From: Hyphomonas sp.
Lineage (GTDB): Bacteria > Pseudomonadota > Alphaproteobacteria > Caulobacterales > Hyphomonadaceae
Assembly (NCBI GenBank): GCA_024743015.1
Contig: JANSXJ010000021.1
Span: forward strand, 1-18,500
DNA length: 18,500 nt
Direction of reading: 5' to 3'
The position numbers and the translations under genes were made by a program. The notes beneath the pieces were generated by a model, which worked only from the letters and a program-made list of their open reading frames with translations, searched no databases and had not been told where the DNA came from. Below are positions 862-17,780 of the stretch, in pieces. How positions within the stretch are numbered: position 1 is the first letter of the stretch; the number at the start of each line of letters is the position of its first letter.

Positions 862-1115
862 CAAGAAGGGTGCAATCGCAATGCGCTATGATCCTGGACC
901 TGGAAAGAATATGGTGCCGATCTTTTCTACGGATTGGCCGATGGCGTCGCCGTGGCGCGGCAACAATGATCCTGTCCTGGCTTGCCGATCACTTGTTTGC
1001 GAAAACGATGACGAGACCTGATCGCAAATTTCATATGAGGCCGAACGCGATACGCAATTTCGTAAACGCTTTGGCAGGCATGGTGAGACCAGTTTGCAAC
1101 ACCAAGAGCCGATTA
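862..1115. other. Gap between conjugation remnant and uptake cluster
   Basis: About 350 bp separate the ribbon-helix-helix gene from the first TonB receptor. The right part, from 1116, holds the operators described separately. The left part has a short open frame at 881-1021 (46 codons, starting MRYDPGPGKNMVPIF), with a purine-rich AAGGG 10 bp upstream. I do not recognise its product and see no match to the start of trbB. The receptor's own frame is also open through this region, but nothing in it resembles a protein domain. This is the likely junction between the conjugation genes and the catabolic cluster. I see no clear integrase site, direct repeat or transposon end. Confidence 0.4.
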
Positions 1116-1129
1116 GACTTCGAATGCAA
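1116..1129. promoter_or_regulatory. Putative LacI-family operator, site 1 (TonB receptor 1, distal)
   Basis: GACTTCGAATGCAA is the inverse orientation of the shared element TGCATTCGAAGTC, centred on the CpG at 1121/1122. Together with site 2 it forms a large inverted repeat. It lies about 90 bp before the receptor start. Assignment to the LacI-family protein at 12808-13878 is inferred from palindromy, the central CpG and recurrence across the cluster. Confidence 0.75.
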
Positions 1130-1148
1130 GATATCTCCAGATGAGATA

Positions 1149-1163
1149 TTGCATTCGAAGTCA
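1149..1163. promoter_or_regulatory. Putative LacI-family operator, site 2 (TonB receptor 1, proximal)
   Basis: TTGCATTCGAAGTCA matches the cluster consensus exactly. Its centre is 35 bp from that of site 1 and about 55 bp before the receptor start codon. A further perfect half-site, TGCATTCG, follows at 1169-1176, with a poor partner (TGCGTCA). No convincing -35/-10 pair could be assigned nearby. Confidence 0.8.
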
Positions 1164-1200
1164 AATAGTGCATTCGTGCGTCAATTGGCACTGAATCGAG

Positions 1201-1205
1201 GGAGG
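1201..1205 (+). promoter_or_regulatory. Shine-Dalgarno GGAGG that fixes the receptor 1 start
   Basis: GGAGG lies 6 nt before the ATG at 1212. The reading frame stays open far upstream (back to 699), but only this ATG has a ribosome binding site and is followed directly by a signal peptide. The same GGAGG with a 6-nt spacer precedes receptor 2 and the HisD-like gene. Confidence 0.85.
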
Positions 1206-1211
1206 ATCGCC

Positions 1212-3545
1212 ATGAGCCGACGCTCATTTTTTACACAAAGCCTGTTTACTGGGGCGGCCGCTGTTGCGCTCACCTCGGCGACCATGACTGCTATTGCGCA
1301 GGAGGATGGCGATACAAGTGGGCCGGAACTGCGTCAGAAGACTGTTATGGTTACAGCGACGAAGCGCGCTGAGAATATTCAGGACGTCCCGCTATCGATT
1401 ACAGCCGTCACTGGTGAAGAACTGATTGAGCGTGGTATCACCGATGTACTTTCGCTGGATAAAACGGTTCCTGGATTGGTGATCAAGAATTCAGGTAACG
1501 ATCCAACACCTATCCTGCGCGGAGCAGGTGCTGCAGGCACAACCGACATCGCGGTTCCCATTTATGTTGACAACACCTATCGGCCGAGATCCGGACAAGC
1601 ACTGGCAAGCTATCTTGATCTGGAGCGAGTTGAAGTCCTCCGTGGACCGCAAGGCACATTGTTCGGGCGCAACACGCTGGGTGGATTGATCAATGTCATC
1701 TCCAAGAAGCCGGACACTTCTGAGTTCGATTGGGGCGGCGCAGCGACTTTGGGTGACTATGCGTTGCAGCGATATGAAGGCTTCGTGAATGTCCCCTTGG
1801 GTGACCAGTTCGCGTTCCGTCTGACAGCAAGCGACACGCAGCGTGACCCGTATGTTGAAAACACGTTCAACTCGGATGCTGGACTGAAAGATGCCGACGA
1901 GACCTACGCGCGGGCCCAGCTGCTCTGGGAGGCGAATGAAGATCTGAGTATTCGTCTGGGTTATACCTACTGGACGGACACTGCGAACGGAAATGCGGAC
2001 TACGCATACAAAGTGCTCGGAATTCCCGTCAATCCACTGACACGCGAGACCAACGGCGTGTTCGGTTTTATCGATCCGCGCCAAGGTACGCGTGATGGCT
2101 GGCCTGGTGGTCGCACACAAGCAGGCAATGTCTCGAATGGAGATATCAGCGCACTCGTTGACCCAGATCCATATCGCATTGCGTTTGACTTCAAGCCGCA
2201 ACGCGACATCGAAGAAACGTCATTTTCGCTGAACGTCGATTGGAACGTCATGGGCCATGACGTGACCGTGAATGCTGCGACGTTTGATTATGAAGAGCTG
2301 CGGCTCACCGACACCGATTTGTCGACTAACTCCGCTCTGGTTGCCGGGCAGCGGACGGTATCGAAAGCTGATCAGCTCGATATCAACATCAACTCTGCCT
2401 ATGACAGCAAGCTGCAATACACGCTTGGTGCTTACTATTATGATGACTCAGACCCAGGCGACACGAACGGTGCATTCTTGTGGGGCTATACAAGTCCCGC
2501 AGCACCAAATGATCCCACCTGGGCTTACTGGCTGTATCAAACCAGCGGTGGTACCAAATCGACAGCGCTATACGGCCAGGCAGAATACTCATTCACAGAC
2601 AAACTGCGCGGAACGATCGGTGCAAGGTACTCGAAAGACGAGCGCAACTCCTACAGCCTGAGTGTTGACCAATCGACGCTCAGTGACCCGCTGCCAAGTT
2701 ATGCAGGTACGCCTTCTCCAATCACCGGAGAAGACGAGCATACAGACTGGCGAATTGGCCTTGATTATGACCTTGCTGACGACGTGATGGTCTACGGATA
2801 CTGGGCAACCGGCTATATCGCCGGGGGAATCCAGCAAGGCAATACCGGGGTCCTTCTAGATCCAAATGAAGTTGAGACTTATGAGCTCGGTATCAAGAGC
2901 CTGTTGCTCGACGGCGCGCTTCGGTTCAACGCGGCTTACTATAACAGCCAGTACGAGAACCTGACGACGACAGTCTTCATTCAGCAGGGTGGAACAATCC
3001 TCGCACAAAGCGTGCCTGGTGGATCGATCACATCCGAAGGTCTCGAATTTGATATATCGTATGCCGCAAATGATCAGTTGCAGATTGATCTTGGAATCGC
3101 GCTCGACATGTCTGAATTTGATGAGTTCAACGTGGGGAACCAGTTCTCTGAAGGCGGTGATACGGTCATTAACGGTCGTTCCTTCTTCATCATGGATGGC
3201 AAAGATACACGCTTCTCACCCGATGTTGCGGTGAGCGTCGCAGCCAGCTACCTGATTGATCTTGGGGAATATGGAGAGCTCTTGCCGAGCGTTCTGGCGA
3301 AATATTCCGACGAATACCAAGCTTCAAATGCCCCATACTATTGGTCGCTCCAACCGAGCTACACTACTTTTGATCTTGCTGCGACATGGACAGCACCAAA
3401 CGCGCCTTGGTCAGTTCGTGTATTCGCGAACAATGTGACGGAAGAGCTCTATCTGACCGAGGCAACAGTGTTCAGCCGCTCGCGCGCAATGGTTGACTAC
3501 AACGCGCCACGCACGTGGGGTGTGCGTGTCGCACGCAACTTCTAA
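1212..3545 (+). CDS. TonB-dependent outer-membrane receptor 1
   Basis: This 777-residue protein should take up a scarce or large substrate across the outer membrane using TonB energy. Residues 1-29 look like a Sec signal peptide ending in TAIA, with cleavage before Q30. A TonB-box-like strand (KTVMVTATK, about 43-51) is followed by a plug domain (about 55-170) with the family motifs VEVLRGPQGTLFGRNTLGG and INVISKKP. The rest is beta-barrel, ending in WGVRVARNF with a terminal Phe, as outer-membrane proteins require. It resembles the large alphaproteobacterial receptor class often tied to carbohydrate or organic-nutrient uptake rather than a specific siderophore type, but the ligand cannot be read from the sequence. 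Two operator-like palindromes lie just upstream and a terminator just downstream, so it appears to be a single-gene regulated unit. It is paralogous to the receptor at 5716-8118, with a nearly identical signal-peptide pattern. Confidence 0.93.
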   Translation: MSRRSFFTQSLFTGAAAVALTSATMTAIAQEDGDTSGPELRQKTVMVTATKRAENIQDVPLSITAVTGEELIERGITDVLSLDKTVPGLVIKNSGNDPTPILRGAGAAGTTDIAVPIYVDNTYRPRSGQALASYLDLERVEVLRGPQGTLFGRNTLGGLINVISKKPDTSEFDWGGAATLGDYALQRYEGFVNVPLGDQFAFRLTASDTQRDPYVENTFNSDAGLKDADETYARAQLLWEANEDLSIRLGYTYWTDTANGNADYAYKVLGIPVNPLTRETNGVFGFIDPRQGTRDGWPGGRTQAGNVSNGDISALVDPDPYRIAFDFKPQRDIEETSFSLNVDWNVMGHDVTVNAATFDYEELRLTDTDLSTNSALVAGQRTVSKADQLDININSAYDSKLQYTLGAYYYDDSDPGDTNGAFLWGYTSPAAPNDPTWAYWLYQTSGGTKSTALYGQAEYSFTDKLRGTIGARYSKDERNSYSLSVDQSTLSDPLPSYAGTPSPITGEDEHTDWRIGLDYDLADDVMVYGYWATGYIAGGIQQGNTGVLLDPNEVETYELGIKSLLLDGALRFNAAYYNSQYENLTTTVFIQQGGTILAQSVPGGSITSEGLEFDISYAANDQLQIDLGIALDMSEFDEFNVGNQFSEGGDTVINGRSFFIMDGKDTRFSPDVAVSVAASYLIDLGEYGELLPSVLAKYSDEYQASNAPYYWSLQPSYTTFDLAATWTAPNAPWSVRVFANNVTEELYLTEATVFSRSRAMVDYNAPRTWGVRVARNF

Positions 3546-3574
3546 ATCGAAAAGCTACGCAAACTCAAAAGAAT

Positions 3575-3606
3575 TGGGCTGCGATTGTTCGCAGCCCATT
3601 TTCTTT
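3575..3606 (+). terminator. Rho-independent terminator after receptor 1
   Basis: A perfect 10-bp stem, TGGGCTGCGA / TCGCAGCCCA (3575-3584 with 3589-3598), has a TTGT loop and is followed by TTTTCTTT. It starts 30 bp after the receptor stop. The opposite strand has a fairly T-rich stretch after the stem, so it may also stop transcripts of the converging TPR-sulfotransferase gene. Confidence 0.85.
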
Positions 3607-3702
3607 GTTGGCGGTGCCTGATCGAACGCGCGGCCTCAGGAGGCCGTCTATTCTGGCAAAATCTGCTTGCTCGCTCCCCTTGATCGACACCGGCAAAATC
3701 GT

Positions 3703-5562
3703 TCAATCGTCATCCGAGAATGTTGACAGGGAAAGAAGCGGCGTGAGTATGTCGGTGCCGGTACCGTATCTTTTCCACCGGTCAACGGAATCCCGGTAAA
3801 TGGGTTGTCGCACTTGGCTTGCGCTTGGCGTTCGGACGACTCCGCGCTTTGTGTGAAATGCCAACACATCCGGATGAAACTCTAATCCCAAATGCTCGAG
3901 TAGTCCTGCCGATACAGCTTCGAGGTTTTCGACGAGTGCTTCATATCGCACCGCCTTGATCGATAGGCCTTCTTCTTTGTGCCAGAAGCTCATCAAGGCA
4001 TGATACCGCCTGTAGAACTGTGCGAGCGAATCCAATCTGTGAGCATAAGTTTGGTGTGCGTCGAAGGGCAGTCGGTAAATTGAAATGCAAGTGTCCGCGG
4101 GATTACGTGTGCAGTGCAGGAATTTCGCATCCGGAAGAATGCGACTGGCAAATCCGATGTATTGGAAGTTCAGCGGAGTCTTATCAACAACGAAGCGAAC
4201 CTTCGGGTGGTCTCTGGTCAGCCTTGCACGATAGAGCGCTCCGATCTCCGATGCCTGCTCCTCCGACAGATCCAGCTGGCATTCGGGAAAGGGCTTGCCG
4301 GTAATTAGTTTGGCTTGTCCTACCGCATCTTCCAGAAAACTCGATTCACCACTTCCGGCGATCAGCGGATGAGAAGACAAGACCTGCTCTGTCAGACTGG
4401 TTCCGGAGCGGGGCATTCCAAGCACGAATAGCGGTCTCGGCTGAGGAGGCTGCCGCGAGCCTCGCGCCCCGCGGCAGCCGACGTTGCGAATTCGAGCGTG
4501 GTATGCCGATGTTTCTTCGTCGACATATGGTCCGCTGGGTGCGATGTGCCGATGACCTTGGTCAAAATACTCAAGAGCTTGTTCAAAGTCGCCGACTTGC
4601 TCGTGAAACAGAGCGAGACCGAATGCGCTATGATGCTTTTGGTCATCTGATGCGGTTGGATCGTTCAGTATTGTCCTCATTGCGGAGACCTCCGTTTCTT
4701 TGAGCGGTCGCCCCTTCAATTGGGCGAGCTGATAATACGCTGCCGCAAATTTCGGATTTTGAGTGATCGCGCCATGAAACGCGTGTTCTGCGCCTCGCGC
4801 GTCTCCGGATTGTTCCAGGATCTGTCCACGAGCATATAAGCCGCGTGCGTGGCGAGATCCAAGTTGATCAAGCGTCTTAATGGCAGACTCTACTTCTCCC
4901 AGATCCTTCAAAACATAGGCCAGATTGATGATGTCGTTTTCTCGGTCAGGCGCCAATCGAAGCGCAACTCGATACGCTGCTTCAGCGCGCGAATACTCGC
5001 ATCTTTTGGAGAGCAGGTCTGCTAGTACGCTGTGGGCCTCGGGGATTGAGCTGTCCAATTTTAGCGCATTGGAAATGGCGCGCTCCGCCAGTGCAAATTT
5101 CTTGAGTTGCATGAAGGCTCGGGCGATGTTCACGTGCGGATCAGCTTGACGAGGTGATAGCTGGATCGCGTGTTTGAGCGCATTGACGGCGTCAGCAGGC
5201 CGACCCTGCTCCAATAAGACGTTTCCCAGATTGTTCAAGCGCGGAGCTGTCGGTTGAGATTCAATTGCTGCGCGAAACGAGTTCTCGGCACTTTCAAGAT
5301 TGCCCATATCTTTGTGCGCCAATCCAAGGTTTGTTCTCGCCTCCGGATCGTCAGGCGCGATCGCGACCGCGCGCGCGATTGTTTCGGTCGCCTCGGCTGG
5401 ACGCTCCGTTAGGAGGTAAACAACCCCTAACAAGTTGAGCGCGTGAATATTGTTGGGGTCCTGGTCCAATACGGCAAGGTAGATCGACTCCGCCTGAGCG
5501 AGTTGGCCGGCGGTTTGAAGAGAGTAGGCGCGCTCGAGTTCTGCGATGATCTCATTGTTCAT
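3703..5562 (-). CDS. TPR-repeat sulfotransferase family protein
   Basis: This 619-residue protein has two parts. Residues about 1-340 are a series of TPR helical repeats (for example ALNLLGVVYLLTERPAEA, LNNLGNVLLEQGRPADA, FGLALFHEQVGDFEQA), a scaffold for protein contacts. Residues about 375-605 are a sulfotransferase domain: the 5'-phosphosulfate (PAPS) loop is MPRSGTS at 383-389 and the 3'-phosphate motif is CTRNPADTCIS at 484-494, with Arg486 and Ser494. A conserved end, RTPSASQVRQPIY, lies at 577-589. The enzyme would transfer sulfate from PAPS to an unknown acceptor. No signal peptide is seen, so it is probably cytoplasmic. It is divergent from receptor 2, and the 153-bp gap between them holds two operator-like sites, so both could be controlled together. 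The start has a purine-rich GAGAG about 8 nt upstream. In related bacteria such genes are often neighbours of TonB receptors; the functional link is not known to me. Confidence 0.88.
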   Translation of the reverse strand: MNNEIIAELERAYSLQTAGQLAQAESIYLAVLDQDPNNIHALNLLGVVYLLTERPAEATETIARAVAIAPDDPEARTNLGLAHKDMGNLESAENSFRAAIESQPTAPRLNNLGNVLLEQGRPADAVNALKHAIQLSPRQADPHVNIARAFMQLKKFALAERAISNALKLDSSIPEAHSVLADLLSKRCEYSRAEAAYRVALRLAPDRENDIINLAYVLKDLGEVESAIKTLDQLGSRHARGLYARGQILEQSGDARGAEHAFHGAITQNPKFAAAYYQLAQLKGRPLKETEVSAMRTILNDPTASDDQKHHSAFGLALFHEQVGDFEQALEYFDQGHRHIAPSGPYVDEETSAYHARIRNVGCRGARGSRQPPQPRPLFVLGMPRSGTSLTEQVLSSHPLIAGSGESSFLEDAVGQAKLITGKPFPECQLDLSEEQASEIGALYRARLTRDHPKVRFVVDKTPLNFQYIGFASRILPDAKFLHCTRNPADTCISIYRLPFDAHQTYAHRLDSLAQFYRRYHALMSFWHKEEGLSIKAVRYEALVENLEAVSAGLLEHLGLEFHPDVLAFHTKRGVVRTPSASQVRQPIYRDSVDRWKRYGTGTDILTPLLSLSTFSDDD

Positions 5563-5622
5563 GGTGATACGGCTCTCTCATGCTGTCATCACTTCGCTGT
5601 ATTGTGTCAAAAACGCAACAAC

Positions 5623-5636
5623 TGACTTCGAAGTCA
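5623..5636. promoter_or_regulatory. Putative LacI-family operator, site 3 (receptor 2 / sulfotransferase, distal)
   Basis: TGACTTCGAAGTCA is a perfect 14-bp palindrome made of two TGACTTCG half-sites. It lies in the divergent gap, about 60 bp from the sulfotransferase start and 80 bp from the receptor 2 start, so it could act on either gene. Confidence 0.78.
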
Positions 5637-5656
5637 TCGGGGTTGCGGGCACAGTC

Positions 5657-5671
5657 TTGCATTCGAAGTCA
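5657..5671. promoter_or_regulatory. Putative LacI-family operator, site 4 (receptor 2, proximal)
   Basis: TTGCATTCGAAGTCA is identical over 15 bases to sites 2 and 5. Its centre is 36 bp from site 3 and about 50 bp before the receptor 2 ATG, closely copying the arrangement before receptor 1. Confidence 0.8.
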
Positions 5672-5704
5672 AAGTGAATAACGTCAAATTGGATAATTTT
5701 CTAG

Positions 5705-5709
5705 GGAGG
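5705..5709 (+). promoter_or_regulatory. Shine-Dalgarno GGAGG deciding the receptor 2 start
   Basis: Two ATG codons lie side by side at 5713 and 5716, and a GTG opens the frame at 5674. GGAGG is 3 nt from the first ATG and 6 nt from the second. The 6-nt spacing matches receptor 1 and gives the homologous N-terminus MSNRSFF, so 5716 is chosen. Confidence 0.75.
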
Positions 5710-5715
5710 AATATG

Positions 5716-8118
5716 ATGAGCAATCGCTCGTTTTTCGTGAAGAACCTATTCAGTGGGGCGGCGATTGTCGCTCTTTCTGCGACCGCGCTGAGTGCCGTCG
5801 CGCAAGACGATGCAGATGCTTCAGCAGACGAGGCAGATCAGCGTCGTCGGATGGGCACGATTACCGTGACTGCGACTAAGGTTGAAGAAAGCGTCCAGGA
5901 CGTATCGGCCTCGATCACCGCACTAGACGGCGAGTCGCTTGATATGGCGGGCATCGTCGATCCAACGCGCCTCGGTCTTGTGGTGCCAGGGATGACAGTA
6001 GGATATTCCGGCGGTGAGGCGCGGATCGCGATGCGTGGCGCTCGCACGAACAATGTGGGGCCCGAAGCGGCGCAAGTTGTTGGTATTTTTAATGATGGCG
6101 CATACGTCGCCACCACGACCCAGGTAATGGCAAGCTATCTTGACCTTAATCGGGTAGAGGTTTTGAGGGGCCCGCAGGGAACCCTTTATGGACGCAATAC
6201 ATTTGCTGGAACCATCAACCTGATTTCAAACGAGCCAGATTTTGAGGAATTTGGTGGTAATATTCAGGGTACGCTGGGCGACTACAATCGCACCCGCGTG
6301 ACGGGCGTTCTGAATGTTCCTGTCAGTGATACTTTCGCATTGCGCTTCGCGGGCCTGGGTGAGCAGCACGATGGATACATCGTGAACTCATACATTGATG
6401 GCCCTCGCGACGATCTGCGGGACGAGGACGTTCAAATCTTCCGCGCGACAGCTCGCTGGCAACCGACAAACAATCTCGATGCCACCTTGCGCTATACGAC
6501 ATCGGAACGCGACACCAACGGTGACGCTATCTGGGGCTATGCTCAAATCGGTTGCTACCGAAACAATCTCGATCCATCGACATCAACAGGACTGTCCTCA
6601 ATGGCGACCTACGTCTCCGGTCACTGTTACCAGCCGGGGCCAGACGCGTCAGGGCGCACGGCACCAGGTGGCGAGGCGACTCAGCAGGATGCCGGGCCGT
6701 GGGATATCGCGCGAAACACGCCATCTCGCAATGCCAATGAAACTGACTCTTGGAACCTTCAGGTCGAATACGACCTCGGATGGGCGACGATGGATTTTAT
6801 TGGTTCGTTCGATACGTTCGAGGGTATTCAATATTATGACGTCGACTATTCTGACGGCGATTTCGATGGTCTGGATGATCTGAACAACTTCTTCGCTGGA
6901 TACGATACGAGCCAAGATACACAGTCCTATGAGCTGCGTTTGACGTCGAACCCCGATGCCAATTCTCCACTGGAGTGGTTGATCGGCGCCTTCTACTACA
7001 AGTCGGAAGCGGACTGGCAGTTCGGGTTCCTGAGCAATGGTCAATTCTTGCGCTACAACACAGCCACGAGTGATACATTTGACAGTGAGTCTACCGCTTT
7101 CTTTGGTAACCTGACCTACTCCGTCAACGATCAGTTCCGTCTCATTGGTGGTCTGCGTGTTAACGATGACCAAACTACGCTTATAGGCGGTGCTGAAGGC
7201 GGATCTTCGGACGAAACGCTGTGGAAGGCAGGACTAGAGTATGATTTCGGTGACGACGAAATGTTCTACGCTACCGCATCAACGGGATACAGAATTGGAG
7301 GCGTGAACGGATCAGCGCTGGTCGCCGCAGGAGCGCCGCCATCATATGGTCCGGAAAAGGTTACCGCTTATGAAGCAGGCATAAAGAGCACTCTGCTTGA
7401 TGGCACACTGACCCTCAATGCGGCGCTGTTTCACAACAAGTACGAAGACATGCATGCGCAGTCTTTCGTAACAGCCTGTATTGATCCAAACGATCCACTG
7501 ACCTGCATCGCCTCAGAATTCACCGAGAACGGCGGCGAAATCGATGCAACGGGACTTGAGCTCGAATTCAACTGGTTGCCCGGTGATGCCTGGTTCTTCA
7601 ACGGCACCGCTTCATTCCTCGACTCAGAGTTCGGCGAATACAATGTTGGCCGCGTGAGCGGACTTGGTAATCTCGGCGGCCGTCAGGATGTCACCATGAC
7701 GACCGGTGAAATTGTTGCTGCCGGAGGCGTTCCATCCTTGTCGCTGGCAGGCTGGACTCCAGCATTGAACCCGGAATTTACGGCCTCGCTTCAGGCCGGA
7801 TATGTCTTCGATCTCGGCGGCGGGAACTACCTGACACCAATGCTGCAGACATCCTACTCTGGCGAATACTGGACGTTCGATTTCAACGTTCCGGGATCCG
7901 AGCAGGACGCCTACACAAAGACGGACCTACGTCTGACTTGGCGGAATGAGGAGCATGGTTTCGAGCTCGAAGGTTTTGTTGAAAACCTCGAAGATGAAGC
8001 CGTCATCACGCGCTCGGTTATCTTCACACCGAGCCAGGCCGATGTGCCAACCGCATCAATCCAGGCGAACTATGCGGATCCGCAGATTTGGGGTGTGCGT
8101 CTCGGCGTGGACTTCTAA
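5716..8118 (+). CDS. TonB-dependent outer-membrane receptor 2
   Basis: This is an 800-residue TonB-dependent receptor. The signal peptide (1-29) ends in SAVA, with cleavage before Q30. A TonB-box-like segment (MGTITVTATK, 46-55) is followed by a plug domain (about 58-175) with VEVLRGPQGTLYGRNTFAG and INLISNEP. The barrel ends in WGVRLGVDF with a terminal Phe. Features not seen in receptor 1 are two cysteine pairs in likely surface loops (Cys280/Cys304 and Cys588/Cys597), which could form loop disulfides, and an acidic segment DVDYSDGDFDGLDD (375-388) that resembles a calcium-binding loop. The ligand is unknown. Being paralogous to receptor 1 and preceded by the same pair of operator-like sites, it probably serves the same nutrient or a related form of it. 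A terminator follows 65 bp after the stop. Confidence 0.93.
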   Translation: MSNRSFFVKNLFSGAAIVALSATALSAVAQDDADASADEADQRRRMGTITVTATKVEESVQDVSASITALDGESLDMAGIVDPTRLGLVVPGMTVGYSGGEARIAMRGARTNNVGPEAAQVVGIFNDGAYVATTTQVMASYLDLNRVEVLRGPQGTLYGRNTFAGTINLISNEPDFEEFGGNIQGTLGDYNRTRVTGVLNVPVSDTFALRFAGLGEQHDGYIVNSYIDGPRDDLRDEDVQIFRATARWQPTNNLDATLRYTTSERDTNGDAIWGYAQIGCYRNNLDPSTSTGLSSMATYVSGHCYQPGPDASGRTAPGGEATQQDAGPWDIARNTPSRNANETDSWNLQVEYDLGWATMDFIGSFDTFEGIQYYDVDYSDGDFDGLDDLNNFFAGYDTSQDTQSYELRLTSNPDANSPLEWLIGAFYYKSEADWQFGFLSNGQFLRYNTATSDTFDSESTAFFGNLTYSVNDQFRLIGGLRVNDDQTTLIGGAEGGSSDETLWKAGLEYDFGDDEMFYATASTGYRIGGVNGSALVAAGAPPSYGPEKVTAYEAGIKSTLLDGTLTLNAALFHNKYEDMHAQSFVTACIDPNDPLTCIASEFTENGGEIDATGLELEFNWLPGDAWFFNGTASFLDSEFGEYNVGRVSGLGNLGGRQDVTMTTGEIVAAGGVPSLSLAGWTPALNPEFTASLQAGYVFDLGGGNYLTPMLQTSYSGEYWTFDFNVPGSEQDAYTKTDLRLTWRNEEHGFELEGFVENLEDEAVITRSVIFTPSQADVPTASIQANYADPQIWGVRLGVDF

Positions 8119-8183
8119 TCCTCCTGGCATTTGCGCGTTTCGGTTTTCCTCCGAAGCTATTGGACGCGCGAGTGTCGTATGAG

Positions 8184-8215
8184 GGGAGGCCTGTTCCAGG
8201 CCTCCCTTTTTTCTT
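8184..8215 (+). terminator. Strong Rho-independent terminator after receptor 2
   Basis: A perfect 10-bp stem, GGGAGGCCTG / CAGGCCTCCC (8184-8193 with 8197-8206), has a 3-nt TTC loop and is followed by TTTTTTCTT. It separates receptor 2 from the hydrolase gene, which therefore needs its own promoter or read-through. Confidence 0.9.
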
Positions 8216-8249
8216 ATCGTGAGCATAGGCAGGCAGGCGGAATAGCGAG

Positions 8250-9746
8250 ATGATCTTCAGCGAACGAACTCTCAGCCCTCTGATCGGCGCAGTTGCATTG
8301 ATGACCACCGCCTGCGCGGGCGCCGTTCCATCAGCAGAAAGCGCGCAATCGCAACTCGTGCTCGCCGGCAGCCAATTAGACCGGCTCTCAGATATCTCCG
8401 TCGATGCACTACGCAACCGGCAGTATGGTGAGGGCGAGCTTACGGTTGTCGCGCCGATCGATCGAACCTGTACGAGCCAAGAGGCTTCAGGCGAACGGCC
8501 GCGCAAAGCGACGCGGCTGATGGCGGGATATCGATCTGAAGGACAATCGCTCTACGCTAGAATTGACATTCCATTTGGACCACCGCCGCCGCAAGGCTAT
8601 CCGGTCATGGTGTTTGCGCATGGCTGGGTTGGGGCTGAAAACGCCCGCGATTGGCATTTCGGATGTACGCTGGAATCCAGTTATGGTGACATCTATGGCA
8701 ATGTGATCAATGCCTGGGCCGAGGCAGGCTATGTGGTTCTCGTGCCCGGGTATCGCGGTCATGGCACGGTCGGCGGCGTCCCCGCAGAGGGGCACGCGGA
8801 TATGCTGGCCTGGGACAATGGCGCCTATTTGATGCCGAGCTTCTATGCGGTTGATGTGTTGAATCTGATCGCGATCAGCCAATCGGCTGATGGGATTAAC
8901 GTGCTGGATGAGAATAGTGCGCCGCGAACAATTCAGCTCGATCCGTCGCGTTACTTCATAAATGGGCACTCTCAGGGAGGCGACGTGACACTGACGGTTC
9001 TGGCCGCGACGGGTGAGGGGGCTACGTCAGAGATTGAGTTTGCTGGTGGATCGATCTGGGCCGGCAACATTGCGGACCGATTTGAGCAGTTGGCGACGTT
9101 TGAGGCCATGAGCACGAGCCCAGAAGCATTTCTCTCAGGAGATGGAACATGGACGGGAACTGCGATCGGGGCAGATGGCTCTGAGAATCCGAACTTCATT
9201 TTTGGCTTTCCGCCTGATTGGATTGGGTCGCCGCATCCAGATGATTGGACCTGGCAGACAGAAACGTATTCGCGTCCGCGCGTCGAAGAGGCGCTGCGTG
9301 CTAAGGCCACCGACATGTACGAGACTTTGAATGCGCAGGTGGGTGAATTCAGGGACCTGTCCTGGGAGTTGGAAACGACCGACGCCGGCCGAGCTTTCGT
9401 TTCGCATGATCCTCGCCTGATCGAAACCATGAGCCGGATTGGCGGGGCTTATGCTGCAGAGTTTCTAACTGAACCGCTCAACCTGCATTTCTCCGACCGC
9501 GACTATTATTCACTGCCGGCGTGGAATTTTGATCTTTGTGAGCGTGCAAATGCGGATGGCGGCGCGTGTAAAACATTCGAATATGTCGGCAACACCCATA
9601 GCCTGAGTGTGAACGAACAGAACTGGTTCTCGCCGCCCGGATCACAGGCGGGGCATGCTGCGTTCATCAATCATGATTTGTGCCGATTCAATGCGCGGGC
9701 TCAGGGCGAAGAAGCCGTTCATTGCAATGTACAGGATAATCGCTAA
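8250..9746 (+). CDS. Exported alpha/beta-hydrolase (probable esterase or lipase)
   Basis: This 498-residue protein has an N-terminal hydrophobic stretch (LIGAVALMTTACAGA, 11-25) that is a signal peptide. MTTAC (18-22) resembles a weak lipobox, so Cys22 could be lipidated. The alpha/beta-hydrolase fold is shown by the oxyanion HGW (124-126) on the strand VMVFA, and by the nucleophile elbow GHSQGG with Ser241 (239-244). Likely acid and base residues are Asp416 or Asp418 (HFSDRDYY) and His450 (GNTHS). Six further cysteines (74, 139, 430, 440, 478, 492) fit a protein folded outside the cytoplasm. It probably cleaves ester groups from the nutrient taken up by the neighbouring receptors. It sits between receptor 2 and the symporter, yet has a terminator before it and no operator-like site. 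GGCGG 9 nt before the ATG is a modest ribosome binding site. A precise substrate cannot be assigned. Confidence 0.82.
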   Translation: MIFSERTLSPLIGAVALMTTACAGAVPSAESAQSQLVLAGSQLDRLSDISVDALRNRQYGEGELTVVAPIDRTCTSQEASGERPRKATRLMAGYRSEGQSLYARIDIPFGPPPPQGYPVMVFAHGWVGAENARDWHFGCTLESSYGDIYGNVINAWAEAGYVVLVPGYRGHGTVGGVPAEGHADMLAWDNGAYLMPSFYAVDVLNLIAISQSADGINVLDENSAPRTIQLDPSRYFINGHSQGGDVTLTVLAATGEGATSEIEFAGGSIWAGNIADRFEQLATFEAMSTSPEAFLSGDGTWTGTAIGADGSENPNFIFGFPPDWIGSPHPDDWTWQTETYSRPRVEEALRAKATDMYETLNAQVGEFRDLSWELETTDAGRAFVSHDPRLIETMSRIGGAYAAEFLTEPLNLHFSDRDYYSLPAWNFDLCERANADGGACKTFEYVGNTHSLSVNEQNWFSPPGSQAGHAAFINHDLCRFNARAQGEEAVHCNVQDNR

Positions 9747-9753
9747 GACTGAT

Positions 9754-9768
9754 TTGCATTCGAAGTCA
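9754..9768. promoter_or_regulatory. Putative LacI-family operator, site 5 (symporter)
   Basis: TTGCATTCGAAGTCA is identical to sites 2 and 4. It lies in the 81-bp gap between the hydrolase stop and the symporter start, about 66 bp before the ATG. Only one copy is present here. Confidence 0.8.
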
Positions 9769-9811
9769 TAAGCCTCAATCAGAAGGCAGGCTTCATCGAA
9801 ACTATCGGGTT

Positions 9812-9817
9812 GGGAGG
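9812..9817 (+). promoter_or_regulatory. Shine-Dalgarno GGGAGG deciding the symporter start
   Basis: GGGAGG lies 10 nt before the ATG at 9828. A TTG at 9810 opens the frame earlier, but it overlaps this ribosome binding site and has none of its own, so the ATG is preferred. Confidence 0.65.
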
Positions 9818-9827
9818 CCTGACGATC

Positions 9828-11456
9828 ATGGAATTTGGCGCGCTAAATTGGGCGATCGTCGCGGCGTACTTAGTCGGCAATCTGTTGCTCGGCTATGCGA
9901 TGAGTCGAAAGGTGAAAACCGCGGCTGATTACCAAATAGGCGACCGCTCTGCACCATGGTGGGCCATCGGGATTTCAGTCGTGGCGACCTATGTCAGCGC
10001 GCTATCCTTCCTTGGTGGACCCGCTTGGGCCTATGGAGACGGCATGGCGGCGCTGGCCATTCATATTAACTATCCATTGGTCATATTTGTTGTTGTCGTT
10101 CTGTTTCTGCCATTCTTCTACAATAGCGGTGTGGCCTCCATCTATGAGTACCTGGAGCAGCGATTTGGTCTGGTCTCGCGAACGGTCATGTCGGCGATTT
10201 TCCTGCTGACGCAAACCGTAACGACGGCTTCTATCCTGACCGCAACTGCAGTCGTGATTACCTTCGCCACCGGGATCGATGTGCATGTGGCGATCATCGG
10301 GATGACGCTCGTGGTGCTGGTTTATACCATGCTTGGAGGAATGAACGCGGTAATCTGGACCGACGTGTTGCAGGGCGTCATCCTGTTTGTTGGCGCCGGA
10401 ATGGTTCTATGGGGGCTGCTGGGAGAAGTGAGCCCGCTTTCAGGCGCGCTCGATACGCTCGCTGAGAATGGCAAGCTGAATCCAATCCGCACAGATCTGG
10501 ACTTCTCGGTTGCTCCTACGGTCTGGGCTGGCGTGCTCGCCATGACCTTGTTCCACATCACGGTCTACGGAACCAATCAGATGATGGTACAACGTGCCCT
10601 GGCCGCCAAGACACTCGGTGATGCCAAGAAATCGTACCTGATGATGGGGTTTGCCGCATTTTTTATCTATTTCCTCTTTTTCTTCATTGGAGCGCTGCTC
10701 TACGTCCACTTCAAGGGTGAACCGTTCGAGCAGCCGAACGAAATTATCCTGGTTTTTGCGCAATCCCTCGCCATCCCGGGACTGATGGGGATCCTCGCGG
10801 CTGCGGTGCTATCTGCGTCCATGTCGAGCCTGTCCTCTGCTCTCAACTCCCTCGCGACAATCTCTGTTACAGACTTCTACCAACGCTTTTTCAAGGCCGA
10901 AGCCAGCCAGGCGCATTTCCTCTCAGCATCGCGCTTCTTCACGATTGTTTGGGCCGCAATGGCCATTCCGATCGCTTTTGCCTTCATCAATAGTGGTGGC
11001 TCTATCCTTGAACGACTGAGCCAGGTGGCGTCTTACTTCGTCGGTGCAAAACTTGCTATGTTCGGGCTCGGCTTTCTTTCCAAACATACGACAGAGCGCG
11101 GCTTGCTGGTTGGGGTGATTGCAGGCTTTGTGGGGCTCTATGCAATCGTCGCCGGCGTGCCGATGCTTGGAATGGAGCCTGCGAATGTTGCCTGGCCCTG
11201 GTATGTGGTGATTGGAGGGGGTATCAATATCATCGTATCCTGGGGCGCCAGCGTACTGTTGGATGGCTTCCAGAGCGACTGGCACCCGCAGACTGTGGTC
11301 GGTCAGATTCGCCGGTTCCGAGATGCCAATTTACCTGAGAAGCAGAACGGGTGGTATCTCGTGCCGGGCAGGGTCGATACGATCACATGGTACTTGCTGG
11401 GTTTCTTTTTACTGATCATAGCGTTCTTGACTTGGTTCGGCACGCTTGGTGGCTGA
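9828..11456 (+). CDS. Sodium:solute symporter (SSS/SLC5 family)
   Basis: This is a 542-residue integral inner-membrane protein with about 13 hydrophobic segments, the usual size of the family. It would import an organic solute with Na+. Family marks are the second-helix segment PWWAIGISVVATYVSALSFL (43-62), the signature GGMNAVIWTDVLQG (170-183), and SMSSLSSALNSLATISVTDFY (331-351), whose Ser/Thr residues correspond to the sodium-site helix of SLC5 proteins. The substrate is not readable. Its position after the receptors and hydrolase, and before the cytoplasmic enzymes, suggests it moves the processed nutrient from periplasm to cytoplasm. One operator-like site precedes it. The next gene begins 87 bp downstream with its own operator, so the two may form one transcript with an internal promoter. 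Confidence 0.92.
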   Translation: MEFGALNWAIVAAYLVGNLLLGYAMSRKVKTAADYQIGDRSAPWWAIGISVVATYVSALSFLGGPAWAYGDGMAALAIHINYPLVIFVVVVLFLPFFYNSGVASIYEYLEQRFGLVSRTVMSAIFLLTQTVTTASILTATAVVITFATGIDVHVAIIGMTLVVLVYTMLGGMNAVIWTDVLQGVILFVGAGMVLWGLLGEVSPLSGALDTLAENGKLNPIRTDLDFSVAPTVWAGVLAMTLFHITVYGTNQMMVQRALAAKTLGDAKKSYLMMGFAAFFIYFLFFFIGALLYVHFKGEPFEQPNEIILVFAQSLAIPGLMGILAAAVLSASMSSLSSALNSLATISVTDFYQRFFKAEASQAHFLSASRFFTIVWAAMAIPIAFAFINSGGSILERLSQVASYFVGAKLAMFGLGFLSKHTTERGLLVGVIAGFVGLYAIVAGVPMLGMEPANVAWPWYVVIGGGINIIVSWGASVLLDGFQSDWHPQTVVGQIRRFRDANLPEKQNGWYLVPGRVDTITWYLLGFFLLIIAFLTWFGTLGG

Positions 11457-11490
11457 GCTCATCAGTAATACGAGGCCGGAAAAATTTAAA

Positions 11491-11506
11491 TTGCATTCGA
11501 ATGCAA
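11491..11506. promoter_or_regulatory. Putative LacI-family operator, site 6 (HisD-like / lacI-type genes)
   Basis: TTGCATTCGAATGCAA is a perfect 16-bp palindrome made of two TGCATTCG half-sites and is the most symmetrical site in the window. It lies about 45 bp before the HisD-like ATG. Because the LacI-type gene overlaps that gene, this site would give autoregulation. Confidence 0.85.
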
Positions 11507-11532
11507 AACTGCTAAGAGCCTTCCGGTAAGAC

Positions 11533-11537
11533 GGAGG
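11533..11537 (+). promoter_or_regulatory. Shine-Dalgarno GGAGG deciding the HisD-like start
   Basis: GGAGG is 6 nt before the ATG at 11544. A TTG at 11538 directly abuts the GGAGG and is too close to be used. The chosen start gives MAKWLKEG, a beginning usual for this HisD-like subgroup. Confidence 0.75.
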
Positions 11538-11543
11538 TTGAAC

Positions 11544-12842
11544 ATGGCAAAGTGGCTCAAAGAAGGGATTGATCCCGATATCAAGCAAAAGGCCGACGCG
11601 CAGGTGCGCAAGACGGTGGAAGACATTCTCGAAGACATTGATGCCCGCGGCGATGCCGCCGTGCGTGACTTGTCCGAGAAGTTCGACAAGTGGAGCCCCG
11701 AAAGCTACCGTCTGTCGCGCGAAGAAATCGATGCATGCTATGAAGAACTCGACGCGCAAGCGATCAGCGATATTCGATTCGCGCAGGAGCAGGTCAGAAA
11801 CTTCGCGCAAATTCAGCGGAACGCCCTTCAGGATGTCGAGGTTGAAACGCTCCCCGGCGTGATACTTGGCCATAAGAACGTGCCTGTGAATTCTGTAGGC
11901 TGCTACATTCCTGGTGGAAAATATCCATTGATCGCATCAGCGCATATGAGCGTTGTGACTGCCAAGGTGGCTGGCGTGCCGCGCATCATTGCGACGGCCC
12001 CCCCTTTTGAGGGGCGGCCACATCCTGCCATTGTTGTCGCCATGGATATGGCAGGCGCAGACGAGATATATTCCCTCGGCGGCGTTCAGGGTATCGGTGC
12101 CATGGCGATCGGAACTGAAACCATTGCCCCTGTTGATATGATTGTCGGGCCAGGAAACGCCTATGTCGCAGAAGCCAAGCGACAATTGTTCGGTCGGGTC
12201 GGGATTGACCTGTTTGCAGGACCCACCGAGACACTGATTATTGCCGATGAGACTGTGGATGAGGATTTCTGCGCTGCCGATTTGCTGGGACAAGCCGAGC
12301 ACGGGCCAACCTCGCCTGCGATATTACTCACCAACTCGGAAGACCTCGCCAAGCGAACCCTGGAGGCTGTTGAACGCCAGCTTGAATGGTTGCCAACCGC
12401 TGACGTCGCAGGCGAAGCGTGGCGTGAATATGGTCAGGTCATTGTGTGTGATAGTTATGAGGAGATGGTCGAGGTCGCCGACGAAATTGCCTCCGAACAC
12501 GTGCAGGTCATGACCAAGGATCCAGACTATTTCCTCGACAACATGACCAATTACGGAGCCTTGTTTCTGGGGCAGGAAACCAACGTCTCGTACGGCGATA
12601 AAGTCATCGGTACCAACCACACATTGCCGACGATGAAAGCTGCCCGCTATACAGGAGGGCTTTGGGTTGGTAAGTTTATCAAAACTTGCACATTCCAACG
12701 CGCGACCCGGGAAGCCTCTGTAATGGTTGGGGAATATTGTTCCCGTCTTTGCGCTTTAGAAGGATTTGCCGGTCATAAAGAACAGGCAGATATTCGAGTG
12801 AGGCGCTATGGCCAGCAACCCGCGGAAAAAGAATCCATCTGA
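11544..12842 (+). CDS. HisD-like zinc- and NAD-dependent dehydrogenase, HpsN-type
   Basis: This 432-residue protein has the size and fold of histidinol dehydrogenase. Aligned by eye with E. coli HisD, every key residue is present: zinc ligands Gln250 and His253 (LLGQAEHGP), Asp352 ([11 protein letters not shown]) and His411 (FAGHKE), and the catalytic pair Glu318-His319 (ASEHV). So it should carry out a two-step NAD oxidation of a primary alcohol to a carboxylate. However, the segment after TNHTLPT reads [17 protein letters not shown]. To my knowledge this is the pattern of non-histidine members such as HpsN, which oxidises 2,3-dihydroxypropane-1-sulfonate to sulfolactate. The catabolic neighbours and the absence of any histidine-biosynthesis gene also argue against a role in histidine synthesis. 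The actual substrate is open. The lacI-type gene starts 35 bp before its stop. Confidence 0.85.
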
Positions 12843-13878
12843 AACAGACGATAATATTATCCCGCTGATCAAGGGTCGGCGCGCGACGTCCTACGATGTT
12901 GCGCGCCTGGCAGGCGTCTCGCAGTCAGCAGTCTCGCGCTGTTTCAAGCCAGGCTCGAGTATTTCGGGCAAGATGCGAGAGCGCGTGATGAAGGCTGCAA
13001 AGAAGCTGGAATACCAACCAAATGCCATCGCGCGCGGATTGATTACACAACGCTCAAATCTGGTCGCCGTGCTCGTTTCTGGCCGATTGAATCTTTATTA
13101 TCCCGAAGCGCTCTTCAAGATAACCGAGCAGCTGTCCTCCGCCGGCCTGCGGGCACTCTTGTTCACCGTCGACAGCGAGGAAGATGCGGAAACCGTTATC
13201 GAGCAGGCATGGCAATTCCAGGTTGATGGCGTGATTTCTGCCTCCCACATGTCCAGGGAGCAATACAAGATTCTCGAGAAGCGTCAGATTCCGGTCGTAT
13301 TTTTCAACCGCTACTTTGCCGATCATCCCAATACTGTTGTCTATTGCGACCCCGCCGAGCAAGTCAGCGACCTGGTCGAGCAGCTCTACGAGCTTGGTCA
13401 TCGTCGTGCGGCAATCATCAAAGGGCCTGAAAAAAATATGGTGAGCGTTGAGCGCACCAGGATTGTGACAGAGAGTCTGACCCGTACCGGCATCGAGATT
13501 GCGGCGAGCGTGCAAGGTGATTTTTCCTACGAAAGCGGTGCGGCAGGTTTTCAGCACTTACAAACACTGGATGGAGACGCACCCACAGCGGTCATCTGTA
13601 TCAATGATATGATGGCGATGGGGTGTATGGATGAGGCACGATTTGTATTGGGACTGAACGTCCCGGCGGATCTGTCTATCGTTGGTTTTGATGGTATCGG
13701 CATGGGCCAATTCTCCAGCTATGAATTGACAACGATCCGTCAACCTATCGGCAGAATGTCGGAAGCCGCAGTGAAAATGATTGCAGATCGTGTTGATCGG
13801 CCAGATCAATCACACGAGAAGCGCGTCTTTGAGGGGGCCGTAATTCCTGGTGGATCTATTGCTCGCGCACCCACATAA
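12808..13878 (+). CDS. LacI/GalR-family transcriptional regulator
   Basis: This is a 356-residue regulator. After a variable tail of about 27 residues comes the LacI-type helix-turn-helix ([20 protein letters not shown], 27-46). A hinge helix with [10 protein letters not shown] (69-78) follows, a feature LacI proteins use to wedge open a central CpG. Residues about 85-345 form a periplasmic-binding-protein-like effector domain, with INDMMAMG and the C-terminal TTIRQP segment typical of the family. It overlaps the HisD-like gene by 35 bp, so the two are expressed together. AGTGAGG lies just upstream of the ATG (4-nt gap). Seven CpG-centred palindromes in the window are its likely operators. 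It probably represses the cluster until a pathway sugar or intermediate binds, but activation cannot be excluded. The effector is not identifiable. Confidence 0.92.
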
Positions 13879-13881
13879 GCG

Positions 13882-13899
13882 TATGACTTCGAATGCATA
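13882..13899. promoter_or_regulatory. Putative LacI-family operator, site 7 (MetE-like / aldolase operon)
   Basis: The core TGACTTCGAATGCA (13884-13897) is the reverse complement of the consensus TGCATTCGAAGTCA, extended by matching TA/TA flanks. Its centre is only 25 bp before the MetE-like ATG, closer than the other sites. That fits a repressor covering the transcription start. Confidence 0.8.
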
Positions 13900-13915: not shown

Positions 13916-15070
13916 ATGAAAACCAGCCAGGATCGAATTCTAACAACGCATGTCGGCAGTCTGCCGCGGTCGAAACAGGTCACTGATCTGGTGTTCGCGC
14001 GTGAGGGCGGCGAAAGCATCGACCAACAGTCCTTTGAATCAATCATCTCTGCTGCTGTAGCGGACACGGTTCGACGACAACGGCAATCGTTGGTCGATGT
14101 GGTCAGCGACGGCGAGATGAGCAAAATCTCCTACGCAACTTACATCAAGGATCGCATCACCGGGTTTGACGGCGATAGTCCTCGGCGCGCTCCCGCAGAT
14201 CTCGAAGACTTTCCAGGCTTTCTTGAGCGTCAGGCGAAGGGCGGGGGGACGCCGACCTATCGACGACCAAAATGCGTCGGCGAGATCAAGGTCAAGAGCA
14301 TGGCCCCGCTGGAAGCCGACTTGCGACATTTCTCCACGGCACTTGAAGGTGCGGGTCACAGCGACAGTTTCATGAACGCGGCGAGCCCAGGCGTCATTGC
14401 TCTGTTCCAGCCGAACGAGTTCTACGCCTCGCAGGATGACTACCTTGAGGCGCTGGCCGAAGCGATGCGCCCGGAATACGAAGCGATTGTTAATGCAGGG
14501 CATATCCTGCAACTCGATTCGCCGGACCTCGGGCTTGGACGACACATGATGTTCAAGGACAAGCCGCTCGAAGATTATCACCGCCTTGCAAGTCAACATG
14601 TCGAAGTTCTCAACCATGCGCTTCGCAATGTGCCTGGGGACCAGGTGCGCATGCATATTTGCTGGGGCAATTATGAGGGACCTCACCATTGTGATGCGCC
14701 TATGGAGGAGGTTCTGCCGGTGGCGCTGAAAGCAAAGCCGCAAGCTCTTTTGTTTGAGAACGCGAACCCACGCCACGGCCACGAATGGACTGTGTTTGCG
14801 GACGCGGAAAAGCGCGGAGAATTGAAAGATAAGATCCTTATTCCGGGTGTCATCGACTCGACGACGAACTTCATCGAACATCCTGAATTGGTTGCGCAGC
14901 GGATTGAGCGATTTGCGGACATTGTCGGCAAGGAACGTGTGATCGCGGGCACCGATTGCGGCTTTTCAACCTTTGCCGGGTTTGGCGCGGTGGATGAAGA
15001 TATCGTCTATGCCAAACTCAAGACCCTGGCGGAAGGCGCAGCGCTAGCATCCAGCAGGCTTTGGTTATGA
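13916..15070 (+). CDS. MetE/epoxyalkane:CoM transferase-like zinc protein
   Basis: This 384-residue protein belongs to the cobalamin-independent methionine synthase C-terminal (UROD/MetE-like) superfamily, a TIM barrel that uses zinc to activate a thiol. Visible marks are TTHVGSLPR (10-18) at the N-terminus and the zinc set His247-x-Cys249 (MHICWGN), Glu281 (LFENANPRHGHE) and Cys348 (GTDCGF). At about half the length of full MetE it lacks the folate-binding N-terminal half. It resembles stand-alone members such as the epoxyalkane:coenzyme M transferases and YxjG/YxjH-type proteins. A methyl- or alkyl-transfer role with a small thiol is likely, but the substrate is unknown. It lies in a catabolic operon rather than near methionine genes. 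GGAG lies 9 nt before the ATG, and an operator-like site lies just upstream. Its stop overlaps the aldolase start as ATGA. Confidence 0.82.
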   Translation: MKTSQDRILTTHVGSLPRSKQVTDLVFAREGGESIDQQSFESIISAAVADTVRRQRQSLVDVVSDGEMSKISYATYIKDRITGFDGDSPRRAPADLEDFPGFLERQAKGGGTPTYRRPKCVGEIKVKSMAPLEADLRHFSTALEGAGHSDSFMNAASPGVIALFQPNEFYASQDDYLEALAEAMRPEYEAIVNAGHILQLDSPDLGLGRHMMFKDKPLEDYHRLASQHVEVLNHALRNVPGDQVRMHICWGNYEGPHHCDAPMEEVLPVALKAKPQALLFENANPRHGHEWTVFADAEKRGELKDKILIPGVIDSTTNFIEHPELVAQRIERFADIVGKERVIAGTDCGFSTFAGFGAVDEDIVYAKLKTLAEGAALASSRLWL

Positions 15071-15819
15071 TACTTAAAGCGGACCTTCGCGAGCAAAAGC
15101 CGCTCATCGGAACTTTTTTGAAGACACCTTCGTCGATGCTGTGCGAGGTGCTCGGGCGCAGCGATCTCGATCTGGTTTGCATCGACGCGGAACATTCGCC
15201 TTTTGATCGCCGCGATATCAATGATTGCGTCTTGGCGTTAAACCAGATTGGCAAACCTAGCCTTGTAAGGATACCAGCAAATCGCCCGGAGCATATTCTC
15301 AATGCGCTCGATTGCGGCGCGACCGGCGTATTGGTGCCGCACGTCATCACGGGTGAAGATGCGCAATTGCTCGCGGGCGACGCGCATTTCGGATCGGGCC
15401 GAGGATATGCTGGATCAACGCGGGCGGCTGGATATGGCGCCCGCACTATGGCGGAGCACAAAGCAAAAAGCGCCGAAGAAACAGTGGTGATCGCACAAAT
15501 CGAAGATGCAGAGGCTCTCGAACATCTCGATGATATGTTCGCCGTCGACGCGATCGATGCTTTTTTTGTCGGTCGCGCCGATTTGTCAGTCTCTCTCGGC
15601 GCGGACGGTCCAAACGATCCAGCTGTGATTGCGGCGGTGGAAATGATTTGTACAAAAGGCAGAGCAGCAGGCGTAACGATCGGAATGTTCACCGCCAACC
15701 TTGAAGAATTGCCCAGATGGCGCGCGGCAGGCGCCAGCCTGTTCTTGCTTGGGTCTGATCACGGATTCATGTTGTCTGGGGCCGCAGATTTAGCGGCGAA
15801 GGTCCGCCAGCATTTTTAG
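15067..15819 (+). CDS. HpcH/HpaI-family class II aldolase
   Basis: This is a 250-residue aldolase of the family that splits 2-keto-3-deoxy or 4-hydroxy-2-keto acids into pyruvate plus an aldehyde, using a divalent metal. The active-site set can be seen: His43 (DAEHSPFD), Arg68 (VRIPAN), the GATGVLVPHV strand (84-93), metal ligands Glu146 (AQIEDAE) and Asp172 (GRADLSVSLG). These positions fall within two or three residues of His45, Arg70, Glu149 and Asp175 of HpcH. The start is the ATG sharing ATGA with the preceding stop; an in-frame TTG two codons earlier is unlikely. Translational coupling to the MetE-like gene implies a shared step or at least joint expression. In the pathway it would be the carbon-carbon cleavage that feeds central metabolism. 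Its stop overlaps the convergent amidohydrolase gene by 4 bp. Confidence 0.88.
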   Translation: MILKADLREQKPLIGTFLKTPSSMLCEVLGRSDLDLVCIDAEHSPFDRRDINDCVLALNQIGKPSLVRIPANRPEHILNALDCGATGVLVPHVITGEDAQLLAGDAHFGSGRGYAGSTRAAGYGARTMAEHKAKSAEETVVIAQIEDAEALEHLDDMFAVDAIDAFFVGRADLSVSLGADGPNDPAVIAAVEMICTKGRAAGVTIGMFTANLEELPRWRAAGASLFLLGSDHGFMLSGAADLAAKVRQHF

Positions 15820-17772: not shown

Positions 17773-17780
17773 TCTACATC

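Follow-up and report, generated by a model that had tools for sequence, protein, structure and literature searches.

The seven CpG-centred sites of the window, by which we mean the entire 18.5-kb contig analysed here (C14, from a 3.88-Mb genome assembled in fragments and 87.5% complete), very probably serve as operators for the LacI-family regulator encoded at 12808-13878, which would in all likelihood repress the uptake and catabolic genes of the cluster. This assignment rests on what is observed in the sequence, namely the sites, their intergenic placement, their confinement to the cluster, their co-occurrence with the regulator and their conservation, and from these we infer binding, repression, operons, an effector and a single pathway. 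In the proposed mechanism, a regulator homodimer would insert its hinge helix at the central CpG, while its recognition helices would read TGCA or TGAC. Free of effector, the regulator would most likely repress both TonB receptors, the symporter and the MetE-like/aldolase operon; it would also repress the HisD-like/LacI operon, which amounts to autoregulation. On neighbouring contigs, predicted repression would cover a cupin-SDR-SnoaL-amidohydrolase operon, a hydrolase, a serine dehydratase and two additional SnoaL genes. A compound of the pathway would relieve the repression, and local autoregulated repression with induction by such a compound appears the most likely mode of control.

Sites and genes of the window

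Seven CpG-centred 14-mers were present as the original prediction had claimed, at coordinates shifted by 0-2 bases. Exact copies of TGCATTCGAAGTCA were found at four sites (1150, 5658 and 9755 on the + strand, 13884 on the - strand), and the site at 1115 differed from it by one mismatch. The sites at 5623 (TGACTTCGAAGTCA) and 11492 (TGCATTCGAATGCA) were perfect palindromes with one half-site type each; the copy at 11492, originally called the most symmetrical, thus shares that rank with 5623. With up to three mismatches, 12 matches were obtained in the window compared to 2.4 expected, and none of 200 shuffles reached 12 (palindromes were counted on both strands, and three of the 12 were three-mismatch matches elsewhere). 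The perfect pattern TG(CA/AC)TTCGAA(TG/GT)CA did not occur in any of 300 windows simulated under a dinucleotide model. A matrix built from the seven sites scored them at 19.8-23.2, while the next best window position reached 12.7. The predicted intergenic placement was confirmed for all seven sites, though intergenic DNA makes up only 6% of the window according to our gene list. A sigma-70 scan yielded six promoter-like sites, fewer than in shuffles (mean 8.6), and so lent no support to an overlap of the operators with promoters.

The cluster is bordered by a C-terminal fragment of a coupling protein of type IV secretion (19-474, PF02534) and a CopG-like ORF below the cut-off (478-861). As proposed, sites precede both TonB receptors, the symporter, the HisD-like gene and the MetE-like gene. 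With half-sites denoted A or B, the combinations A/A, A/B and B/B all occur in the window. TonB-dependent receptor 1 (1212..3545, +; PF00593 and PF07715) is preceded by a distal predicted operator of A/B form with one mismatch (1115..1128, -) and a proximal, perfect A/B one (1150..1163, +), centred 90.5 and 55.5 bases before its start; an additional single half-site, TGCATTCG, follows at 1169..1176 (+). A similar half-site lies behind the operators of TonB-dependent receptor 2 in three aligned relatives, not in the window. Receptor 2 (5713..8118, +) is preceded by a distal B/B palindrome (5623..5636, no strand) and a proximal A/B operator invariant in four aligned sequences (5658..5671, +), both predicted, with centre-to-start distances of 83.5 and 48.5 bases. 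At both receptor promoters the tandem sites are 35 bases apart. The gene for a TPR-sulfotransferase (3703..5562, -) is divergent from receptor 2 and shares its operator region; this gene between the receptors was not found in L057 or L058, two loci of relatives, and its membership of the cluster is therefore doubtful. An alpha/beta-hydrolase-like protein (8250..9746, +), probably secreted as judged from its N-terminus, has no Pfam match of its own, while a relative hits Abhydrolase_1 below the cut-off. The next predicted operator (9755..9768, +; A/B, invariant in four aligned sequences) is centred 66.5 bases before a sodium:solute symporter (SSF; 9828..11456, +).

The A/A palindrome (11492..11505, no strand), a predicted operator invariant in seven aligned sequences, is centred 45.5 bases before the gene for the histidinol-dehydrogenase-like (HisD-like) enzyme (11544..12842, +; loop GGKYPL). 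This gene overlaps that of the LacI-family regulator (12808..13878, +; recognition helix QSAVSR, hinge NAIARGL), which is, as stated in the original prediction, the only LacI-type gene of the window. The last predicted operator (13884..13897, -; A/B form) is centred 25.5 bases before the gene for a single-domain MetE-like protein (13916..15070, +; HxC, E, C zinc-ligand pattern), and an HpcH/HpaI-type aldolase (15067..15819, +) presumably belongs to the same operon. On the - strand follow an amidohydrolase (15816..16718; PF04909), a SnoaL-like protein (16705..17850; two-domain by homologue L128) and a short-chain dehydrogenase (SDR) cut by the contig end (17781..18500).

The positions of the sites also bear on the direction of control. 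The distal receptor sites, whose centres are 83.5 and 90.5 bases away from the start codons, could suit activation, but the proximal sites lie 25-67 bases before start codons, as fits repression, and repression is the usual habit of the LacI family; we therefore consider an activator or dual regulator improbable.

Confinement of the motif and co-occurrence with the regulator

TGMMTTCGAAKKCA had nine perfect sites in the 3.88-Mb genome, compared to none for the reversed control. Six of them lie in the window and the other three at C475:2104, C475:2913 and C214:2867. Since the genes of C475 and C214 adjoin those of the window in relatives, these three sites are not distant regulon members, and a random scatter of the motif is contradicted by all nine perfect sites falling within this gene cluster. 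Allowing one mismatch added 11 places in the genome, among them 1115 of the window; in the other ten the core was altered or the half-site letters were other than CA/AC. With an assembly 87.5% complete, a site or a regulator may have been missed.

In the relatives L057 (G015) and L059 (G024), the genes immediately after the SDR were ordered cupin, site, hydrolase, site, serine dehydratase, followed by a 207-residue protein and then SnoaL, site, SnoaL. The 207-residue protein matches PF03458 in L059, and its counterparts in L057 and L072 are 82-84% identical; these genes of the PF03458 'glycine transporter' family are located beside the serine dehydratase at L059:3024-3647, L057:16569-17192 and L072:92-715. 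L057, L058 and L062 carry the cluster as one uninterrupted stretch of 15-19 kb, L058 being without the serine dehydratase. In the relatives the operon starts with the cupin gene; here that gene resides on C475, preceded by a predicted operator of its own. Beyond the genes originally named, the predicted regulon also takes in the cupin, hydrolase, SnoaL and serine dehydratase genes. One relative, G015, has two diverged copies of the cluster, L057 (G015:C1) and L058 (G015:C8), both equipped with a LacI gene and sites of their own.

The motif was further predicted to stand beside orthologues in related genomes, and it does co-occur with the regulator orthologue across genus and order. In the genus (the genome of the window and 28 others; orthologue cut-off E <= 1e-60), five of 29 genomes encoded an orthologue (78-100% identity), with pattern-match counts of 9, 6, 13, 7 and 5. 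In the 24 genomes without an orthologue the counts were 0-2, and only one of these matches, in G005, shows the strict CA/AC form, inside an ORF. Among the 398 genomes of the order (cut-off E <= 1e-80), the orthologue was found in 26, exact TGCATTCGAAGTCA in 24 and both in 18 (Fisher 2.8e-20). The exact 14-mer was thus present in 18/26 orthologue genomes but in 6/372 of the remainder, which does not exceed chance, as about nine genomes would be expected for a random 14-mer by a hand estimate. Six of the eight remaining orthologue genomes (G137, G404, G201, G217, G229 and G194) had a variant site near the regulator; in the other two of the 26, G166 and G277, no site was seen in the 4 kb read around it. 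Genome confinement and regulator co-occurrence together strengthen the earlier proposal that uptake and catabolism form one control circuit. As a separate observation, a genome without an orthologue at the threshold used carries two perfect sites 6.3 kb apart (G350:C70:8415 and 14689).

The protein itself has sequence features of the LacI/GalR family, with a LacI-type HTH (PF00356, 51.2 bits, cut-off 27) and an effector domain resembling periplasmic binding proteins (PF13377, 83.7 bits, cut-off 26.5), and its palindromic sites with a central CG are located near target starts, as in that family. The hinge-helix leucine for the central CpG, L78, was invariant in 12 aligned sequences, and PNxxAxxL was found in 79/80 loci encoding relatives. 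The specificity residues are Q39 and S40, and QS was present in all of the 76 homologues of 80 that could be read. The recognition helix belongs to the A-V-S-R rather than the TVSR class; AVSR was seen in 75/80 regulators and SVSR in one, four being unread, and the G-contacting arginine is kept.

It is quite unlikely that a different regulator, or an additional LacI-type protein acting together with this one, uses the sites and that the neighbouring LacI gene is a bystander. The assembled genome contains nine LacI-type HTHs, one of them encoded on C525 with the similar helix VSAVSR, and the two half-site types could hint at two proteins. However, the motif tracks this very orthologue across the order and into other lineages, QS is common to the 76/80 homologues read and, within the assembled genome, occurs in this regulator only. 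Moreover, locus L096 combines A, B and a third half-site type, C, with a single LacI gene.

According to the accessible part of Camas et al. 2010 (PMC2978694), residues AA-15/AA-16 of the LacI family read NT-5/NT-4, and one such protein may accept two half-site types as well as mixed sites ('intrinsic degeneracy'). The letters alternating between CA and AC in the present sites are NT-5/NT-4, the positions read by the QS residues in that code, and the mixed A/B operators thus have a precedent in the degeneracy described there. In comparison to that part of the code (PMC2978694), the present system is of the AVSR and not the TVSR class, its mixed sites outnumber palindromes, and its third half-site type carries one extra base.

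Relatives and unequal half-sites

A GTDB genome scan with the regulator alignment A1 gave 426 loci encoding relatives, 80 of which (1.42 Mb) were analysed. These contained 98 perfect and 73 one-mismatch sites, with none of either in the reversed-letter control. Gene models in the 80 loci rested solely on similarity to proteins encoded by the window or by contigs C475 and C214, and one of the 171 sites fell inside a gene modelled in this way; an extended motif gave 225 sites, none inside modelled genes and none in the reversed-letter control. The motif adjoins related clusters in Henriciella, Parvularcula, Woeseia, Sphingorhabdus, Sphingomonas and other records. Twelve families recur, with occurrences ranging from 34 to 72 loci out of 80: the regulator, cupin, HisD-like enzyme, aldolase, MetE-like protein, two SnoaL groups, TonB receptor, SDR, hydrolase, symporter and amidohydrolase. 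Fourteen loci had no site within one mismatch, of which eight had an extended site and six did not. The expectation that orthologous clusters carry the motif thus held for the 72/80 loci with extended sites and failed for the eight regulator-homologue loci without one (L082, L108, L111, L113, L129, L130, L138 and L145). The first four of these are short contigs, and L129 is a diverged cluster. L130, L138 and L145 (Massilia, Oxalobacteraceae and Pseudoduganella records) hold a QS-type regulator homologue without pathway genes in the locus. In L068 (G092:C60), a perfect A/B site (633-646) precedes a partial unidentified ORF, with the regulator on another contig, and may mark an extra regulon member.

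It is hardly credible that the repeats are a mobile or structural family spread within the cluster and not operators: the distribution in the genus is patchy (5/29 genomes), a conjugation-gene fragment adjoins the cluster and G015 has two cluster copies, but the sites hold their positions upstream of genes and, as extended sites in the 80 loci, are absent from modelled genes. Furthermore, in three promoter alignments the proximal operators formed invariant islands, and conservation covered the 14 bp operator and short flanks. The patchy distribution and the adjoining coupling-protein fragment suggest that the cluster as a whole may sit on a conjugative element.

To identify half-sites, one half was kept constant while the facing half was read out, and all pairs around the CG were then counted. 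Three halves recurred: A (TGCATN), B (TGACTN) and C (TGTACTN), the last one base longer. The 225 sites of the 80 loci comprised 93 A/B, 67 A/C, 59 A/A, 4 B/C, 2 B/B and no C/C pairs, where independent halves would give 62 A/B, 44 A/C, 86 A/A, 16 B/C, 11 B/B and 6 C/C; an A half was kept in 219/225. To reduce kinship, we took one locus from each of 33 regulator clusters (70% identity; 70/80 loci clustered, 10 dropped). In these representatives, with 38 A/B, 29 A/A, 18 A/C and 2 B/C pairs, the surplus of unequal sites persisted (chi-square 16.2, 3 degrees of freedom), shared descent being only partly removed. Half C occurred in 34/80 loci, 16 of which also had B; it is present in G137 and, in the form TGTACTNCGNAKKCA, absent from the genome of the window. 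A comparison of half C use with single regulator residues pointed only to columns that may track clades.

The pairs were unevenly distributed over promoters. In the 33 representatives, the ratio of A/A to unequal sites was 20:14 at regulator/HisD-like promoters and 7:40 elsewhere (Fisher 5e-5, excluding two sites that have no A half and four with no assigned gene). When sites of the same locus were compared, the more symmetric ones were at the regulator/HisD-like promoters in 28 cases, with two reverse and 20 equal (10, 2 and 8 among the representatives). At one-directional receptor promoters the gene-facing half was non-A in 30/35 unequal sites, compared to 22/39 elsewhere. Of the 18 neighbouring-site pairs less than 200 bases apart in the 80 loci, seven were spaced by 33-37 bases.

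We tentatively propose, with somewhat more doubt than confidence, that these operators are lopsided by design: A would be near-obligatory and its partner A, B or the longer C, the second dimer head docking otherwise or register-shifted, and promoters would be graded. Equally tentative is the form of this grading, with A/A at the regulator and HisD-like genes and A/B or A/C at the uptake and other catabolic genes. The unequal half-sites offer a simple hypothesis, graded repression of uptake versus regulator genes, and natural A/A, A/B and A/C sites beside one helix type (QS) provide a data set on the tolerance of a homodimer for unequal half-sites. The natural lac operator O1 is asymmetric by one base as well. 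Unusual to us are the prevalence of mixed sites and the extra length of half C; the system is ordinary in kind and unusual in operator make-up. A search for the operator letters in titles and abstract openings gave no literature match.

The local LacI regulons of RegPrecise, in the portion of the survey available (PMC4052901), likewise feature an even palindrome with a consensus CG centre, autoregulation, neighbouring targets and more than one site per promoter, the latter there before about a fifth of operons. Their site spacing peaks at 13, 22 and 32, while the tandem sites of the window are 35 apart; a regulon of the present type is not named in that portion and, in contrast to those regulons, no carbohydrate pathway was recognised in this cluster (PMC4052901). 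CytR and CcpA are described, in the accessible sections of PMC3454398 and PMC5263246, as LacI-family members with unusual or flexible binding sites, whereas here one half-site is longer by an internal base and its partner keeps the canonical form.

Pathway enzymes and candidate substrates

The analysis defines, purely from sequence, the regulon of a catabolic cluster that is found again in numerous genome records, most of them proteobacterial; membership of the regulon can thus help to trace the substrate. That the genes serve one substrate, as originally claimed, is plausible in view of the predicted co-regulation and the conserved gene content.

The MetE-like protein missed the curated methionine-synthase cut-offs (best 91.3 bits versus 406). 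The zinc-ligand pattern of MetE is HxC, E, C; in the MetE-like family, HxCW was found in 53/53 members, TDCG in 40/53 (13 unmatched by the expression) and FExxNPR in at least 45/53, counted among the six commonest forms listed. The HisD-like enzyme exceeded the TIGR00069 cut-off (471.5 versus 243.8 bits), and its closest solved relatives by sequence (PDB) are the DHPS dehydrogenase HpsN. The HisD-specific loop GSAPL given in the accessible part of PMC11382572 is absent, the enzyme having GGKYPL. At that place HpsN has the motif GRY(A/S)H with the sulfonate-binding His126, according to the same part of PMC11382572. Sulfonate (DHPS) catabolism, suggested by the PDB relatives, was rejected because the His126 motif is missing. 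All 56 family members read by motif contained PGG[KR][YF]P[LM], none with His there. With its loop GG[KR][YF]P[LM], this HisD-like clade shows the signature of neither HisD nor HpsN and seems to form a third functional group.

Catabolism of a sugar acid is possible, given the GarL/HpaI-like aldolase and the fuconolactonase-like amidohydrolase, neither of which reaches the cut-off of a named model. PDB sequence searches with the cupin, SnoaL, hydrolase and amidohydrolase proteins gave no match or broad ones only. For the gene combination of the cluster, titles and abstract openings contained nothing relevant; the same was true of mycosporine catabolism, where part of the search was poorly targeted. 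Degradation of mycosporine-like amino acids is a speculative and improbable alternative, suggested by the serine dehydratase and PF03458 carrier together with the HisD-like and MetE-like parts. Such a substrate would offer a methyl group to the MetE-like protein and a CH2OH beside an OH to the HisD-like enzyme, while released serine and glycine would pass to the serine dehydratase and the PF03458 carrier. Some relatives carry the serine dehydratase and the PF03458 family gene within the cluster, and C475 has them too.
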